Assembly (NCBI GenBank): GCA_016841205.1
Contig: JAENZP010000003.1
Coordinates: 62,001 to 126,000, forward strand
Source: Desulfoscipio geothermicus
GTDB taxonomy: Bacteria; Bacillota; Desulfotomaculia; Desulfotomaculales; Desulfallaceae
Direction of reading: 5' to 3'
Length of the DNA stretch: 64,000 bases
Made by a program: the position numbers and the translations under genes. The first letter of the stretch is position 1. Each line of letters begins with the position of its first letter. The notes below the pieces were generated by a model. That model saw nothing but the letters and a program-made list of their open reading frames with translations. It made no database searches and was not told the DNA's origin. Positions 2,600-19,205 of the stretch are shown here, in pieces.

Positions 2600-2614
2600 A
2601 CCTGTTCCACTACT

Positions 2615-2653
2615 TCCCGCTGACGTGGGCAGTGGTACAGCATGGCCGACTGA
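2615..2653 (+). pseudogene. Short remnant of a DUF6504-like gene
   Basis: In one frame this reads R-stop-RGQWYSMAD-stop. It matches the core of the DUF6504-like pseudogene at 14028-14270 (R-stop-GGQWYRVAE), including the same TGA in place of the expected Trp of the FRWRG-type motif. Only about 13 codons are recognisable. Confidence 0.5.
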
Positions 2654-2938
2654 AGGGTTTATCTATCTGATGCCATTAACTCCAAAAATTTCCTCTATCG
2701 CAGACCTCTCCAACTCGTCAAGTGTCGCTCGGATTCTCTCAAAGTCCAAGTAATTTAAGCCAGTCCTTCGGGGTTGAACTTTTTAATATTTTTTATTTTT
2801 TTGACATTTTTGAATTTTTGCTGTATATATATTTAACATCCTCTTATTTCTTTTATTTCCTCTCCTCATATTCTTTGATGATACTTTTTAACCGGCTGAA
2901 AAAGCCGGTCTTTTTTTCTCCCGTTTGAAAAAAATAGA
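2654..2938. other. AT-rich gap with one terminator-like hairpin
   Basis: No convincing gene is present. The 2722-2928 open frame is low-complexity Phe/Leu/Tyr sequence without a ribosome site. The hairpin AACCGGCT-GAAAA-AGCCGGT followed by CTTTTTTTC at 2890-2920 looks like an orphan rho-independent terminator, which suggests a lost gene upstream. Confidence 0.5.
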
Positions 2939-7198: not shown

Positions 7199-7369
7199 AT
7201 GAAAGTATATGAAATGACCTTAGATAAAAAGCCTGGCTGGTGTTTCTTTTGTCCTCTGCGAGAAGTTCCGTAAAAATTGAGATGCCATTTTGTGGATCCA
7301 TTAAAACCGTTAACCAGCAAGATGGATGGCAAAGCTCTGGGAATGCACCTGACAAGCGATGCATTTTAA
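7199..7369 (+). pseudogene. Small cysteine-motif phage-type protein interrupted by TAA
   Basis: ATG at 7199 preceded by AGGGAGAAGG. The frame reads MKVYEMTLDKKPGWCFFCPL, REVP, TAA, then continues in the same frame KLRCHFVDPLKPLTSKMDGK and ALGMHLTSDAF to a second TAA. The CxxCPL...C pattern is seen in short phage-associated proteins. The in-frame stop at codon 25 suggests inactivation; readthrough is not supported by anything visible. Confidence 0.45.
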
Positions 7370-7393
7370 AAGAAAGAGAATAGGCATAAAAAT

Positions 7394-7424
7394 AAGGCCC
7401 TCACTCGGGGGCCTTACCGTTTTT
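7394..7424 (+). terminator. Rho-independent terminator
   Basis: AAGGCCC-TCACTCG-GGGGCCTT followed after a short gap by GTTTTTC. It separates the small broken gene from the integrase remnant. Confidence 0.6.
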
Positions 7425-7426
7425 CA

Positions 7427-7962
7427 ATCCGATTTAAAACCGGCCAGCCTTGGTAACAGAATAAGGTTTATCAAATCCCTGTTTAGGTGGGCTCAGGATG
7501 AAGGCTATATTGTTGGTAATCCTGCGAGAAAGCTTTGCGAACCTAAGGAGGGTCGGAGATTGCCAAAGGCCCTTAGCGAAGAGGATACAGAAATACTCCG
7601 GGAAGGCTGTATCACACCCCGGGAACATGCCATAGTTGAGTTTATTTACACCAGCGGATGCCGAATTGGTGAGGTTGTCGGGCTGAACCGGAATGCTATA
7701 GACTGGGACACCAGGTCTGTGGAGGTTTTCGGGAAGGGCTCGAAATAGAGGGAGGTTTATTTTAATATTAAAGCAACCATATGGCTAAAAAGATATTTAA
7801 AGGAAAGAAGGGATGCCAATATAGCCTTGTTTGTTACTGCGCGAAAGTTTAACGGACAACCTCGCCGGTTGTCAATATCACAGATGCGGACGGTCATAAA
7901 GGTCGTGGCCAAGCGAGCCGGGGCTAAGCGAGGTTAATGTTTCTCCCCACAAGCTTAGGCAT
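7427..7962 (+). pseudogene. Tyrosine integrase, 5' portion, broken and interrupted
   Basis: The N-terminal part of a XerC/D-type integrase lacking its first ~40 residues: SLGNRIRFIKSLFRWAQDEG, then ALSEEDTEILREG and YTSGCRIGEVVGLNRNAIDW (catalytic Arg in GCRIGE). It is broken by a TAG after GKGSK at 7746-7748, continues REVYFNIKATIWLKRYLKER, then has an extra base near 7923, after which the frame reads SEVNVSPHKLRH up to 7962. There the coding sequence is split by the RIT element; its 3' half resumes at 11208. It was already decayed or has decayed since the insertion. Confidence 0.85.
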
Positions 7963-7991
7963 TATGGTGAGAGATATCAAATGGTGAGTGA
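7960..7991 (+). repeat. Left 32-bp terminal inverted repeat of the RIT element
   Basis: Begins CATTATGGTGAGAG and ends ATGGTGAGTGA; it is identical over 32 bp to the reverse complement of 11153-11184. Confidence 0.95.
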
Positions 7992-8113
7992 TTGTGCTTA
8001 ACGCTGTAGATTCAGGCATCTGATTTAGCAACAGAGCAAAGCACTCACCATTTTCTATATAATTATCCTTACCGAACAAGCGTTATCGCTATTTTATGAG
8101 GAGGATGATTATA

Positions 8114-9116
8114 TTGGAGAATCAAGACATCCACGTCGCCATACTGTCTATTATGGAATCAATGAGTCGGCAAGGGACATCGCCAGGCAGACTCAAGAAC
8201 TTCGAGAACTCTTACAATGTATTCGAACACTATTTGTCGGACAACGGTATTGACAAGATTGATGAAAACATTTGTCTTTGTAGTAATGTCAATTTAAAAG
8301 TTGACCACTGTGACAACCACAAAATTGACCACCCCGAGGCGGTTTTTAAAGTTGTTTAGGGTGTTGTTGTGTTCAATTTGTCCCGACTTTCCTTAAACCG
8401 GTAAGATTCACCGACAAAAGGAATTACGTGAGCATGATGTGTTAATCGGTCCAACAGAGCGATGGTTAAAGTTGGCGCCCATGCTCCCCAAAGTACGCAC
8501 ACCCCGCAATGCCTCGATCCCCTATGTTTGGTCCAAAACAGACATACAAAGGTTGCTCAACGCAATAGATCGCGATGACCCCAAAGGCAAGCGCGACTAC
8601 GCGATACTTTTGATAGCTATCCGGTTGGGTCTCAGGATTGGCGACATCAGGAGCCTTCAGCAATCGTCGATAGACTGGCACAGGAAAACGATAAATCTGA
8701 AAATGTCTAAAACCAGCCAACCGATTGAATTGCCGCTACTCAAAGACATCGGCTGGGCCATCATCGACTATCTGCAAAACGGTCGCCCTGCCACAAACAG
8801 CGAATGCCTATTTGTCAGGCACAGAGCGCCTTTCAACGCATTTGGCGGCCGCAATGTCTTCAACAAAGAGCTCCATCGCTATATTCTGAAAGCCGGTCTG
8901 AACATGCCCGGAGACCAGCGGCATGGGATGCACTCGCTACGAAGCACGTTGGCGGGAAACATGCTTGAAATTAAATCACCGCTGCCCATCATATCGGAAG
9001 CGCTGGGGCATCAGTCCGTCAACACTACAAGCATATACCTTAAGGTCGACGTTGAAGGGCTGCGCAAATGTGCGCTCGATCCAGAGGAGGTGTTTGCCAG
9101 TGAAAACAGCCTATGA
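8114..9116 (+). pseudogene. First RIT tyrosine recombinase, interrupted by IS21 fragment
   Basis: TTG start at 8114, 9 nt after AGGAGG. The N-terminal piece (MENQDIHVAILSIMESMSRQ to about DENICLCS) runs into an IS21 end at 8287. The catalytic part resumes at about 8467 (KLAPMLPKVRTPRNASIPYV) and ends at 9116. About 100 residues of the DNA-binding N-terminal domain are missing, so insertion was accompanied by deletion. The catalytic motifs remain: GLRIGDI (Arg), HSLRS (the second His of HxxRH is Ser), LGHQ and a Tyr in TTSIYL. Its 3' end overlaps the next gene by 17 nt, the usual tight coupling of RIT genes. Confidence 0.85.
8287..8465 (-). mobile_element. IS21-family remnant: istB 3' end plus terminal repeats
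   Basis: On the minus strand 8463-8356 encodes the C-terminus of the IS21 helper ATPase IstB: IALLDRLTHHAHVIPFVGES then YRFKESRDKLNTTTP and stop. The outer end (8287-8335) has the IS21-type terminus starting TGTCAATTTAAAAGTTGACC followed by a second TTGACCACC-like repeat. The rest of the IS (istA and most of istB) is gone, so this is an immobile scar inside the first RIT recombinase. Confidence 0.85.
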
Positions 9117-10083
9117 ATGGAAAAGCGGGTTTGCGGAAGCCGCGCAGAACTACATTTCACTCAAGCAACAGACCGGAATGAAATTCGAAATTCAGGAACG
9201 CTATCTGCGGCACTTCGACACATTTTATTACAGCAACGGCTTTGAAGGGAGCACGTTGACAAAAGAAATCGTCAACGACTTTGTCTATGGCCTAAATGAA
9301 CGGCCTGTGACGCACCACAACAAAGAAGTGCTGATGCGAGACTTCGCGATGTATCTGGCTGACAGAGGCCACCATGCGTATGTGACGGAAGTCAAGACTG
9401 CGCTTCCGCGCTGCAAATTCATCCCCCACATCTTCACGGACGACGAAACCCGCCGGATGTTCATAACCATAGATAATTATCCGCAGGCGCGGATGTCATA
9501 CAGGAATGCGGTTGATCCGGTACTGTTCAGATTTTTGTACGGCACAGGCGTACGGATTTCCGAGGCACTGAATCTCGTTCTCAATGATGTAAATATGGAA
9601 TCCGGAACCGTCACAATCCGCGCCGCTAAAAACATGAAAGACCGATTGATTCCCATGGCTGATAGCCTGACAAAACGCATTCTCACTTTTATGAATGGAT
9701 TCCATCGGTACAGCGACGATAGAATGTGGCTTTTCCCGGGCTACCACAACGGAACAATGGGGCAGATGGACAAGAGCACTGCTTACAACCATTTCAGGGA
9801 TTATTTGCTTATGGCCGACATCCCTCACACGGCTGTAGGCCCGCGAATCCACAGCTTTCGCCATGGATTTGCCGTCAAATGCCTTAAAAAATGGGTTTTG
9901 ACCGGGAACGACCTGACCGTCATGCTGCCATACCTGTCGGCGTACATGGGGCATTCGGACTTCCGCGCCACCCAATACTATCTGCGGCTGACATCCGATC
10001 TGTATCCTGAGATCGTGCGGCGGGTTGAGGCAGAGTTCGGATACGTTATACCGGAAAGCGGGATCATTTATGACGAAAGCTGA
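9100..10083 (+). CDS. Second RIT tyrosine recombinase
   Basis: GTG start (MKTAYEWKSGFAEAAQNYIS) with GAGGAGG 9 nt upstream, overlapping the end of the first recombinase by 17 nt; an open extension back to 8923 is only overlap. 327 residues: an N-terminal SAM-like core-binding domain (about 1-100) and a catalytic domain with Arg in GTGVRISEALNL, Lys in AAKNMKDRLIPM, HSFRHGFAVKCL (HxxRH), GHSDFRATQYYL (GH and the nucleophile Tyr). All catalytic residues look present. It overlaps the third recombinase by 14 nt. RIT elements are thought to need all three proteins for transposition. Confidence 0.92.
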   Translation: MKTAYEWKSGFAEAAQNYISLKQQTGMKFEIQERYLRHFDTFYYSNGFEGSTLTKEIVNDFVYGLNERPVTHHNKEVLMRDFAMYLADRGHHAYVTEVKTALPRCKFIPHIFTDDETRRMFITIDNYPQARMSYRNAVDPVLFRFLYGTGVRISEALNLVLNDVNMESGTVTIRAAKNMKDRLIPMADSLTKRILTFMNGFHRYSDDRMWLFPGYHNGTMGQMDKSTAYNHFRDYLLMADIPHTAVGPRIHSFRHGFAVKCLKKWVLTGNDLTVMLPYLSAYMGHSDFRATQYYLRLTSDLYPEIVRRVEAEFGYVIPESGIIYDES

Positions 10084-11095
10084 TTTGCCATATTACCTTA
10101 CGCAGTTCCTCGGCAAATACCTGCCCGGTGAGAAGAATGCCAGCCGCCACACTATCCAGTCTTATTCCGTGACTTTTAAACTGTTGCTCTCCTTCTTCGA
10201 ACAGACGAAGGCGATTGCGCCGGAGCGCCTTTCCATGGCGGATCTGACCCGTGACACGATTGTTGATTTCTTGGACTGGCTCGAATCCGCACGGGATTGT
10301 GCGGTGACGACCAGAAACCAGCGGCTGGTGGCAATCCATTCGTTTGTCAGGTTTGTGCAAAAACAGTCGCCCGAGAACCTGTTTGAGTTCCAGAAAATAT
10401 TGAACATCCCGGATAAGAAGTGCGCGAAAACAGTTGTGCCGTTCCTGACTGGCGAAGAAATGAAAATACTGCTGTCGATGCCTGACCCCTCAACCCAAAA
10501 GGGACTTCGGGATATGGTACTGATGGCTGTATTGTACGACAGCGCTGCGCGGGTTCAGGAGATCATAGATTTGAAGGCTAAGGATTTGCGCCTGGATAAG
10601 CCCGCTGTGATCACTTTGCATGGCAAAGGGCAAAAGACTCGCCACGTTCCAATCACGGAGAAGACGAAAAACCTCTTGGAGTCATATTTGTGGCGTAATC
10701 CGGGCAACAACGGGGTCAGCGGCGGCGAGCAGTATGTGTTTGTAAACCAGAGAAAACAGCAACTGACACGCTGGGGCATATCTTACATCATCGACAAATA
10801 TGTCGGTTTGGCGAGACTGAATGAAAGGTTCCAGGTACGCTTTCCTGTTACGCCGCACGTGTTTCGACACAGCAAAAGCGTCCATCTTCTTCAATCCGGC
10901 GTTAATTTGATCTACATCAGAGATTTTCTTGGGCATAGCGATTGCAACACAACCCAGATTTATGCTAAGGCAGACACCGAGACGCGGCGGAAAGCGTTGG
11001 AAGCGGCATATGTTGACATTCTGCCGACAAGTGAACTACCGGATTGGTCGGACGACAAAAATCTGATGGACTATCTTAGCTCCCTTAGCAGGTAA
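10070..11095 (+). CDS. Third RIT tyrosine recombinase
   Basis: ATG at 10070 overlaps the stop of the second recombinase; an upstream in-frame ATG at 10025 would lie deep in that gene and is less likely. 341 residues: N-terminal core-binding domain (TIQSYSVTFKLLLSFFEQ) and catalytic domain with SAARVQEIIDLKAKDL (Arg), GKGQKTRHVPI (Lys), HVFRHSKSVHLLQSG (HxxRH), LGHSDCNTTQIYAKAD (GH and Tyr). The gene stops 4 nt before the right-end subterminal repeat. It appears intact. Confidence 0.92.
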   Translation: MTKADLPYYLTQFLGKYLPGEKNASRHTIQSYSVTFKLLLSFFEQTKAIAPERLSMADLTRDTIVDFLDWLESARDCAVTTRNQRLVAIHSFVRFVQKQSPENLFEFQKILNIPDKKCAKTVVPFLTGEEMKILLSMPDPSTQKGLRDMVLMAVLYDSAARVQEIIDLKAKDLRLDKPAVITLHGKGQKTRHVPITEKTKNLLESYLWRNPGNNGVSGGEQYVFVNQRKQQLTRWGISYIIDKYVGLARLNERFQVRFPVTPHVFRHSKSVHLLQSGVNLIYIRDFLGHSDCNTTQIYAKADTETRRKALEAAYVDILPTSELPDWSDDKNLMDYLSSLSR

Positions 11096-11152
11096 TGATC
11101 AAATGGTGAGTGAATCGATGTGCAAGTCAGCGGTTTAGCTGGATTTCTGTCG

Positions 11153-11184
11153 TCACTCACCATTTGATATCTCTCACCATAATG
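11153..11184 (-). repeat. Right 32-bp terminal inverted repeat of the RIT element
   Basis: Perfect reverse complement of 7960-7991. An inner inverted copy of its AAATGGTGAGTGA part is at 11101-11113, just after the third recombinase stop codon. Confidence 0.95.
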
Positions 11185-11187
11185 GCG

Positions 11188-11209
11188 AAAATGGGGAGCT
11201 CCCCATTTT
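11188..11209. repeat. Perfect 22-bp palindrome at the right RIT boundary
   Basis: Half-site AAAATGGGGAG followed by its exact reverse complement. It lies between the right inverted repeat and the restored integrase codons, and has no counterpart on the left side. Confidence 0.9.
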
Positions 11210-11606: not shown

Positions 11607-12076
11607 ATGACACCGCAAGAATTCTAAAGACACTTGGCCCGGTGGCGATGCAGCTTTACACAGAAACCGGGATATTCGCCATTATAACTCTGGCACAGGC
11701 CGCGCTTGAATCGGGCTGGCTGAAAAAGTCTCCGGTGGACAAGCACACCGGGCAGGTCAGCTACAACGCTTTTGCTATAAAGGGGTTCGGCACTGTTGGC
11801 AGCGTCACCTACGATTCCGATGAAGTTATTGATGGCAAGCGTATTAGCGTGGAGTCTCAGTTCCGGGCTTACAACAATTATTACGAGCCCATGGCCGACC
11901 ATCACAAATTCCTGGAGTCTGACCGGTACAAGCCGGTATGCCAGGCAGCCACTCCGGAAGAAGCGGCCCGGCAGTTGTATGCCTGTGGCTATGCGACGGA
12001 TCCGGAATACCCGGAGAAGTTGATCAGGATTATTAGCCAGTGCGGCCTTAAAAAATACGATGTTAAAGAGGATTAA
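11607..12076 (+). pseudogene. Phage-type glucosaminidase (endolysin) with 5' frameshift
   Basis: The true start is ATG 11607 (RBS AAAAGGGGG). MTPQEF is followed by an in-frame TAA; restoring one base gives LKTLGPVAMQLYTETGIFAI joining the long frame that ends at 12076. That frame is a Mannosyl-glycoprotein endo-beta-N-acetylglucosaminidase/FlgJ-like domain (PF01832 type): AQAALESGWLKKSPVD contains the likely catalytic Glu, then YNAFAIKGFG, FRAYNNYYEPMADHHKFL and EEAARQLYACGYATDPEYPE. Apart from the frameshift near 11622 the domain is complete. Internal ATG 11648 has no ribosome site. Confidence 0.75.
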
Positions 12077-12082
12077 AAAAGT

Positions 12083-12752
12083 ATGAAAATCTATAATGAC
12101 AAAGGGCATGGGGAGCACGGGGACCCGGGAGCATGTAAGGACGGCTTAATTGAGCGCGATATGACCATTATCACCGGTAACGCACTCGGAAAACGCCTTG
12201 AAGAGTACGGCTGGGATGTGGTGCTGTTGGCCAATGCTGTAGCGCAAGGGCTTAAGAAAGCCGGGCAAACTAAAGTTAATATTGTTAAGTGCAAAGCCAA
12301 CAGCAGGGGGACTGAGTATTTCGGCATTCTCAGGACTACGAAAATGCCGGCTGTAATAGTAGAAACGTGTTTTATTGACAATGCAGCCGACCGTGTTATA
12401 GCTGATACAGTAGAAGAGTTGCATTGCCGATGCTCTGGCGACGGCTTATGGGGGTAAGTTGGAGTCTGCTACCGACGCAGTCACAGCTAAAGCAATCAAC
12501 GCTATCAAGGCGGCTGGTATCATTAGCAGCCCGGACTACTGGCTAGAGAATGCAGCCCCCTGTAAGCAGGTAAACGGGGAATATGCGGGTGTCTTGATGC
12601 AGAAAGCCACGGGTAAGGCTACAACAGCAGAGGCCATTGCTGTGCTGCAACTTAGCGATCCGGATTATTGGGTACAAAACGCGGTACCCGGCGGGACAGT
12701 TGACGGGAAGCTTGTGGGCTATCTAATTCAGAAGATAGCCAGAATTTTATAG
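12083..12752 (+). pseudogene. N-acetylmuramoyl-L-alanine amidase, internally deleted and frameshifted
   Basis: The N-terminus (MKIYNDKGHGEHGDPGACKD, GLIERDMTIITG) is an Amidase_3 domain with the first zinc His and Glu region. After WDVVL the sequence jumps directly to LANAVAQGLKKAGQ, so about 60 residues with the central His motif (SIHxN) are missing. The end of the domain is present (MPAVIVETCFIDNAAD). At about 12422 a frameshift moves the frame to ALATAYGGKLESATDAVTAK, followed by a C-terminal region with two repeats (SPDYWLENA and DPDYWVQNA), as in phage endolysins. Catalytically dead. It completes the decayed lysis cassette with the two preceding genes. Confidence 0.75.
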
Positions 12753-12763
12753 GGGTGGTCAAC

Positions 12764-12961
12764 ATGAACGAGGATAAAACAATTATTTATGCTGCAATTG
12801 GCTCTGGCGCGGCGTCGTTTGCTGTATGCGCGATGGGGTATTTTATGAACCTTTCCACGGACGGACCGCTGGTCGCCGTTTTCACCGGTATGGTTAGTGG
12901 CGTGGTAGGGTTCCTGCTGGGTACTTATAAAGGTTCACAGCAAAGTAGCAAGGCGAAATAA
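12764..12961 (+). CDS. Holin-like two-span membrane protein, 65 residues
   Basis: ATG 12764 with GGGGTGG 7 nt upstream; the GTG at 12755 is part of the ribosome site. The product MNEDKTIIYAAIGSGAASFA has two hydrophobic spans (about 8-28 and 36-55) and a short basic Ser/Lys tail (YKGSQQSSKAK). Size, topology and position directly after the amidase suggest a phage holin; no family motif was recognised. This is the only cassette gene without a visible lesion. Confidence 0.65.
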   Translation: MNEDKTIIYAAIGSGAASFAVCAMGYFMNLSTDGPLVAVFTGMVSGVVGFLLGTYKGSQQSSKAK

Positions 12962-13711: not shown

Positions 13712-13882
13712 TCAATAAAAACTTCCTATGCGATAGCCATGTAACTGTAAATACATGGTTATATACTTATTTAGCTTCTGACTGATTGTAAGTAATTCGT
13801 TATGACTAGCGTCTGTGTCAATTAGGTTATGTAATTTGGCGCGCAGGCGTGCTATTTCTGAGACTATTTTTTCCTGAGACAT
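13712..13882 (-). CDS. Spo0E-family aspartyl-phosphate phosphatase
   Basis: ATG at 13882 on the minus strand with GGAGGTGA 6 nt upstream. The 56-residue product MSQEKIVSEIARLRAKLHNL / IDTDASHNELLTISQKLNKY / ITMYLQLHGY... has the Spo0E pattern: helix LRAKLHNLI, a loop, and SQKLNKYI corresponding to the SQxLDxLI motif (the conserved Asp is Asn here). Known family members dephosphorylate Spo0A~P and delay sporulation. It faces the HTH gene and shares its terminator region. The Asp-to-Asn change in the signature may weaken activity. Confidence 0.8.
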   Translation of the reverse strand: MSQEKIVSEIARLRAKLHNLIDTDASHNELLTISQKLNKYITMYLQLHGYRIGSFY

Positions 13883-14027
13883 TATATATCACCTCCAACA
13901 TATTTGTTTCTTGGTAAACAGTGCCATTACCTGCTAAATAATGTTAAAAACAATGTCGCTTTATGTGAGATATTTCACTTTTTTCAACATACACCTGTTC
14001 TATTATAAGACCCTTAGGTGATGCCTT

Positions 14028-14270
14028 ATGACCAAACTTTACCGACAACCGATAGATGCACGGATCAAAGACGGCCTATCCGTTGCTTTCCGTTGAGGTG
14101 GGCAATGGTACAGAGTGGCCGAATGCACGGTGAAGGATTACCTGCCGCGCTGGATGCAGTGGCGAGATACGGCCTGGCTGCCACGGTACCGGTGTGAGAC
14201 GCGGCAGGAGATGTTGTGTGATTTGGTGATGGTGGAGGATGAGTGGATGTTGGAGAGGGTTTGGGATTAA
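14028..14270 (+). pseudogene. DUF6504-like gene with in-frame TGA
   Basis: ATG 14028 to TAA 14270 is one continuous frame of 80 codons except for TGA at 14094-14096: MTKLYRQPIDARIKDGLSVA, FR, stop, GGQWYRVAECTVKDYLPRWM, then QWRDTAWLPRYRCETRQEM and VEDEWMLERVWD. It resembles DUF6504 proteins (xPVxVxxxxGxPxxFxWRGRxYxV), in which the stopped position is Trp. A single TGG to TGA change explains it. A fragment with the same lesion is at 2615-2653. Confidence 0.6.
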
Positions 14271-14382
14271 AATATAGATTAGTTTTTTAAACATTTTGTC
14301 GAATATATTGCGTTAATTATAATAAAAAGATTAATATTATGTTATATAATTACTATTTGCCCGATGGGAGGGTGTGTGCGGC

Positions 14383-15101
14383 ATGTCGTCTTATGATATT
14401 AATCTCTACATGAAAGGCGACAATAGTCGTGTTTCACTTAATGCCTTTATTTCCGGCTGGCAAAAACTACTAAAATTATTGAATGAAGTTGAAACATATT
14501 TTTTAGATAAAAATATGCCTGTGTTGGATTAGGAAATTAACGATCTAAAACAATCAAGTGCCGGTGTGGGATTGGTTACCGTTTCGAAGGATTCATTACC
14601 ATATACAGGTAATTATATTGCAACAAAAGTCGTAGAAGGCTTACGCTTATTGGAAACAAAGGGGAGACGTCCTTATTATTTTTTAGATAATGCTTTAAAT
14701 GCTGCTAAGGACCTGGCTTTATTATTAGGCAAAATAACAAAAAGAGTTGTTATTAGTAACAATGCTAATAACGATATTGATATAAGCCATCATATTGTAG
14801 CTAATGTAAATAAAATTCTTGACACTATTTTTGAAGAATATGGTTCCATTGAAGGTAAGCTAAAAATGCCGTCAGCTGCAAAGAGTTGGTACTTTAATAT
14901 TTATGATAATGTAACTGGTGTTCGTATCTTGTTATTTTGAGGAAAATCTATTATTACAAGCAGCCAAAGCTATTAATAGTAGGGTAGGTTTTTTTGGATT
15001 AATTTCATATAATAAAGATGGTTATCCCAAGACCATACGTCAAATAACAGAATTTGATGTTATTCCTCATGACAATAATTTGCCAACAACTGATGATATA
15101 G
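14383..15101 (+). pseudogene. Gene paired with PIN toxin (antitoxin-like), broken
   Basis: ATG 14383 (RBS GGGAGGG) encodes MSSYDINLYMKGDNSRVSLN...LNEVETYFLDKN. TAG occurs at 14530-14532, after which the same frame continues DLKQSSAGVGLVTVSKD to a frameshift near 14928; the next frame gives CYFEENLLLQAAKAINSRVG and FFGLISYNKDGYPKT, VIPHDNNLPTTDDI. The reconstructed ~240-residue protein precedes a PIN-domain gene, an arrangement I interpret as a toxin-antitoxin-like pair. Its C-terminus seems fused by deletion to the PIN gene. The family has not been identified by name. Confidence 0.55.
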
Positions 15102-19106: not shown

Positions 19107-19205
19107 TGGCGGGAGTGTGTGAGAATCGAACTCACCAGGGACGGGATCGCCGCCCCACTAACTGGTTTTGAAGACCAGGGGCACCACCAGGCACCATCCA
19201 CCCCC
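19107..19205 (-). tRNA. selC: tRNA-Sec (anticodon TCA)
   Basis: On the minus strand 19205 to 19107 folds as a selenocysteine tRNA. The anticodon arm CTGGT-CTTCAAA-ACCAG places TCA in the loop. The D stem GGTGCC-TGGT-GGTGCC is six pairs including two G-U, the long extra arm TAGTGGGGCGGCGATCCCGTCCCT is present, and the T arm GTGAG-TTCGATT-CTCAC and CCA end are encoded. The acceptor pairs GGGGGTG with CACTCCC (one wobble). The 99-nt length is typical of bacterial tRNA-Sec. It fits with a UGA-containing mvhD in this window. Confidence 0.93.

Follow-up and report, generated by a model that had tools for sequence, protein, structure and literature searches.

Two TGA stop codons that replace the same tryptophan in a 64,000-nucleotide stretch of Desulfoscipio geothermicus DNA (the window) are, in our confident judgment, marks of ordinary gene decay. 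Both sites are read as pseudogene remnants of one family, the standalone ImuB-C (DUF6504-like) proteins, and all five copies found in the genome have been lost. The larger, the 14028 copy, is an 80-codon gene running from ATG 14028 to TAA 14268-14270 and interrupted solely by the TGA at codon 23. The initial annotation had reported TGA for Trp both here and in a second piece, and both stops do lie at codon 23 (Table 1). Relatives in alignment A1 have Trp at this codon in 13 of 13 cases, within the motif F-x-W. The frame past the stop had been described as open and well conserved. It is open, but its conservation is not untouched, as P18S, the stop, R24G and G61E alter four of 29 positions at which the six sequences of alignment A2 do not vary. 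The otherwise open 80-codon frame and the 25 invariant residues still kept count against decay.

Table 1. Features of the window at and around the two pseudogene remnants
Feature	Position	Strand	Basis or remark
53-nt remnant of second copy, directly behind terminator-like hairpin	2606..2658	+	hairpin by eye
TGA at codon 23 of remnant	2621..2623	+	second TGA at codon 33 (2651-2653)
Endolysin (Glucosaminidase), decayed prophage lysis module	11642..12076	+	Pfam 3.4e-28; PHROG endolysin 1.5e-37
Amidase_3 endolysin remnant, shortened to 124 aa (L113: 237 aa)	12083..12457	+	Pfam 9.1e-15, two stretches; PHROG endolysin 1.4e-16
Small membrane-like protein, holin position	12755..12961	+	no Pfam/PHROG match; putative holin by position only
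LexA (SOS) box position, here ATACACCTGTTC	13989..14000	+	6/8 palindrome bases, shuffle P 0.19, not above chance
-10-like TATAAG (TATAAT in many related copies)	14004..14009	+	read by eye
Ribosome-binding-site-like AGGTGAT, ahead of ATG 14028	14016..14022	+	read by eye
Pseudogene of 80-aa standalone ImuB-C (DUF6504-like) protein	14028..14270	+	
Premature TGA, codon 23	14094..14096	+	Trp TGG in 24/27 copies spanning codon
Next gene downstream, apparently broken	14374..14940	+	TAG 14530-14532; likely frameshift near end
tRNA-Sec gene	19107-19205	-	edge of mobile-element region

Copies in the genome

The genome (3.38 Mb in 36 contigs) was searched with DNA, protein, an intact relative and a profile, and all five copies found are broken. 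The lesions are one TGA in the 14028 copy, two in the 2606 remnant, a frameshift with a TAG, a 5' loss with a TAG, and reduction to a stub. The third copy (C27:25305-25548) has one extra base early in the frame and TAG at Trp 50, with codon 23 intact; the fourth (C24:68897-69025) has lost its 5' part and has TAG at codon 42; and the fifth (C13:602777-602847) consists of the promoter and about the first 60 nt, with nothing more. The C27 and C24 copies retain the C-terminal half. A sixth, intact copy suggested by the profile on contig C33 (E 0.3) was rejected, as it falls inside an unrelated 514-aa ORF. It had been proposed beforehand that other copies with additional independent lesions and no expression would speak against a meaningful stop, and the copies of this genome do carry such lesions.

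The second piece, first reported at 2615-2653, is a genuine homologue that in register reaches 2606-2658. Its ungapped score is 23.5 against the 14028 gene, 23.5 against the intact same-genus relative L010, and 22 against the C27 copy. The highest score that L010 as query obtained in 30 mononucleotide shuffles of the whole window was 15, which rules out a chance likeness. BLASTN of 2590-2670 against the genome returned the query itself and chance 14-19-mers, with none of the other copies, because the remnant has no long exact word in common with them. With 53 nt, a position behind a terminator-like hairpin and a second stop, the remnant could hardly encode a product.

Nonsense changes, a frameshift and truncations would together have removed the five copies. 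As in ordinary multi-copy pseudogenes of mobile-element remnants, all five carry such lesions and remnants of integrase and lysis genes adjoin, and nothing that we tested sets them apart from that class.

Codon 23 and alternatives to simple decay

A comparison with relatives, one of the checks proposed at the outset, was carried out in 100 genomes, this one included. Matches were found in 20, and with the loci L117 and L118 added, 27 copies span codon 23: 24 have TGG, two have TGA and one, L028, has TAG. Both TGA copies are those of the window; among the relatives TGA does not recur at this codon, and the in-frame TGA codons of L014, L016, L031 and L032 lie elsewhere. The count includes L031, which was placed by eye, and leaves out copies in which codon 23 is not covered (C24, the C13 stub, L021, L035, L036 and L116) as well as the weak matches L025-L027, of which L026 covers the codon but is poor and has six stops.

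Two routes could have led to the repeated stop: one mutation that preceded a duplication, or a double hit in a Trp-rich target. Across codons 17-33 of intact L010, five single transitions produce a stop and two of these strike codon 23, so two coincident hits there are not improbable. We give about an even chance to a course of events in which an ancestral copy first changed from TGG to TGA and was then duplicated; this is itself a form of decay and is counted within our confidence in decay. The initial annotation had offered it as one explanation, and it is possible, as T at nt 52 and A at nt 69 occur, among the eight sequences compared, in the fragment and the 14028 copy but in none of the remaining six. 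Against it, nt 52 lies at a weak edge of the alignment, the fragment has none of the changes at nt 66, 70 and 87 that are private to the 14028 copy, and at nt 55 and 78 it matches C27 instead of the 14028 copy. A parsimony count over 53 sites gives a tie of 69 steps whether the fragment is joined to the 14028 copy, to C27 or to neither, and by this measure one mutation and two coincident hits cannot be told apart from the sequences.

The other explanation offered was that TGA is tolerated or read through. Selenocysteine insertion, using tRNA-Sec and SelB, or decoding by a near-cognate tRNA would then yield the whole 80-aa protein. The genome has the selenocysteine machinery, with a tRNA-Sec gene in the window itself, 5 kb from the pseudogene, and SelB above its cut-off; the 14028 frame is open downstream of the TGA; and TGA occurs at codon 23 twice. 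As in bacterial selenoproteins, which combine an in-frame TGA with a SECIS element, there is thus an in-frame TGA in an organism that has tRNA-Sec and SelB. Unlike in those proteins, the relatives have Trp and not Cys (Cys at codon 23 in 0 of 27 copies), and no SECIS-like hairpin was seen after the TGAs, where the RNA folds no better than shuffled sequence (z 0.19, -0.27 and 0.14). The fragment moreover has its second TGA ten codons further on. Among 55 tRNA matches (150 of 173 candidates scored in the 36-contig assembly) there is one tRNA-Trp, with anticodon CCA, and no TCA anticodon apart from that of tRNA-Sec; ARAGORN skipped two degenerate matches, with loops CUUAUAA and CUUACAA. Reassignment of TGA to Trp, in the manner of code 4 with its UCA-bearing tRNA-Trp and lost release factor 2, was rejected given this CCA anticodon and the presence of prfB, the release factor 2 gene, above its cut-off. 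Six of the 41 non-overlapping ORFs of at least 150 aa in the window terminate in TGA.

The private changes in the 14028 copy are also compatible with neutral drift. Its branch has 17 private changes, 12 of them nonsynonymous (neutral expectation 0.72-0.79, P 0.29-0.55), compared with four of 10 in intact L010 (P 0.009-0.035). These numbers are small and do not cleanly separate dead from living copies, since the broken C27 copy, with 12 of 23 nonsynonymous, is also under the neutral expectation (P 0.004-0.036); we read C27 as a copy that probably died recently. Given the tRNA content, the shuffle-like fold, the drift, the want of Cys homologues and the further lesions in other copies, readthrough by selenocysteine or otherwise was rejected, and we regard it as extremely improbable. 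Only slightly less improbable is that the 14028 gene is split yet working, with translation restarting downstream (for example at GTG 14115, for 51 aa) and the C-terminal part functional alone. An ORF with a GTG start does span 14115-14270, and the C-terminal half is what the C27 and C24 copies also keep. However, of the six strands predicted, the restart product would have lost the first two and the beginning of the third; G61E, which follows the stop, alters an A2-invariant glycine; and the LexA box of this copy is not above chance. With decay as the preferred reading, the TGA would stop translation after 22 residues; codon 23 is the final residue of strand 2 in the predicted structure, and the shortened product would consist of strand 1 and the greater part of strand 2.

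Family identity and predicted structure

Pfam DUF6504 (PF20114, cut-off 24.2 bits) recognizes two of 10 distinct intact relatives above its cut-off (L017 at 25.2 and L024 at 28.0); seven score 17.0-20.9, below it, and one (L022) has no match. When W was put in place of its stop, the window copy had no match to this model at E<=1, and NCBIfam gave no match for it or for five relatives. A tblastn search with the L118 protein against 72,556 plasmid records produced one match (40.7% over residues 7-60, E 8e-4), to a Rhodoplanes 'DNA polymerase Y family protein' whose gene lies near one for an 'error-prone DNA polymerase'. In this 493-residue protein DUF6504 lies at residues 411-488, below cut-off (E 0.025), and the L118 protein is thereby a homologue of the C-terminal domain found in an ImuB-like polymerase of the Y family. 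The same query found no match in 50,697 phage records. Our literature search found no paper that names DUF6504; from these similarities we infer that it corresponds to ImuB-C.

The sections consulted of one study describe ImuB-C as a beta structure with a conserved C-terminal Trp, which also occurs on its own, in proteins linked with SOS genes (Aravind et al. 2013, PMC3765255), and those of a 2019 paper report a lexA-imuB-C-polY operon (PMC6511836). The family studied here agrees with this description: the model of the L106 protein has six strands (pLDDT 87.3, pTM 0.74), so that its predicted fold is mostly beta, and a Trp near the C-terminus is almost invariant in A1. No known fold was matched in PDB or BFVD at E<=0.001, in line with a passage in which ImuB-C is modelled as a beta-barrel with no closely related PDB structure (PMC12926913). 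To judge from the excerpts of PMC3765255 and PMC6511836 and from PF20114, the family shares with standalone ImuB-C its small domain, all-beta prediction, conserved C-terminal Trp and link to LexA, as well as a resemblance to the C-terminal end of a Y-family polymerase whose gene neighbors that of an error-prone polymerase. It differs in that the window copies are broken. Additionally, the cases published in those excerpts stand in operons with DinB, DnaE2, UmuC or lexA, whereas the intact relatives here are often on prophages or conjugative elements and have a LexA box of their own.

That box is a GAACN4GTTC-like palindrome, with seven or all eight bases matching, upstream of 11 of the 24 copies examined; in 500 shuffled sets the number of boxed upstream regions in 24 averaged 0.4 and never exceeded three. 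The consulted text of PMC4234289 gives GAACN4GTTC as the LexA palindrome of the B. subtilis type, and GAACACATGTTT stands upstream of lexA in this genome. The gene start overlaps the end of a LexA_DNA_bind gene at L117 and L017, and no such box is found there. The boxes and these two overlaps link the family to LexA and the SOS response. An intact copy would be expressed once DNA damage inactivates LexA, as the boxes suggest, to give an 80-aa protein with a predicted all-beta fold that, judging from the ImuB-C literature, would help recruit or tune error-prone polymerases at damage.

Genomic neighborhood

The endolysin gene and the shortened amidase lie 1.6-2.4 kb upstream of the 14028 copy, and the gene downstream appears broken; for these reasons we regard a decayed prophage as the most likely setting of the copy, which would have decayed beside the lysis module. 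A Pfam scan of 14566-14937, within the downstream gene, gave no match. Between the lysis remnant and the pseudogene is a gene for a Spo0E-like small protein (13712-13882, minus strand, Pfam 7e-8).

Other features were noted in the window. Three tandem, overlapping tyrosine recombinase genes (8439-9116, 8923-10083 and 10025-11095) are bracketed by 37-nt inverted repeats (7955-7991 and 11153-11189) that are 95% complementary, and this unit (7955-11189) resembles a recombinase-in-trio (RIT) element. A cut integrase fragment (7359-7748) adjoins it. A 94-nt repeat occurs in three copies (15745, 16343 and 18786), the latter two 67% and 72% identical to the first, and apparently encodes a short motif. 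The tRNA-Sec gene is a possible insertion point for mobile elements.

The contexts of intact close relatives were counted at the seven close-group loci with at least 2.3 kb of flank on each side (L106, L108, L109, L110, L112, L113 and L118); L107, L111 and L114 were left out for short flanks, L115 and L116 as incomplete matches and L117 as a member of another group. Five of the seven have prophage lysis genes next to them or conjugation genes around them: three behind endolysin or holin genes (L110, L113 and L118, the last from a viral contig) and two among conjugation genes (L106 and L112). At L108 and L109 nothing was recognized as mobile from a listing of the neighbors made without a family scan. 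Two neighbor genes of the intact copy in genome G003 (L113:5343-6939) recur beside the truncated C24 copy (L085:7490-9063) with 36% and 41% identity, which makes the family a marker of a site with shared cargo. A role of the downstream cargo in defence was considered: among 10 such proteins scanned, two match PADLOC, one weakly and one over part of DrmA. The product of L112:5317-6240, downstream of the copy among conjugation genes, matches residues 85-289 of DrmA (7e-31) and, weakly, HATPase_c.

Implications

The stop codon itself offers nothing new and, as a product of gene decay, matters little; carriage by mobile elements is a modest extension of what is known of the family. Tentatively, and as something we hold possible rather than probable, prophages and conjugative elements of Desulfotomaculum relatives may carry their own LexA-boxed standalone ImuB-C as independently transcribed cargo, in prophages right behind the lysis module and before variable cargo genes. 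It may supply an SOS-timed subunit for the error-prone polymerases of the host or a damage sensor for the element's own exit, and the window would hold a dead example. The portions of the ImuB-C literature consulted contain no mention of carriage of LexA-boxed ImuB-C by prophages or conjugative elements, and the remark on phages in the consulted part of PMC3765255 concerns SRAP. It could matter that a domain known from mutagenic repair complexes seems to travel, under SOS control, on phages and conjugative elements. If so, the role of standalone ImuB-C would become testable in a simple prophage setting.
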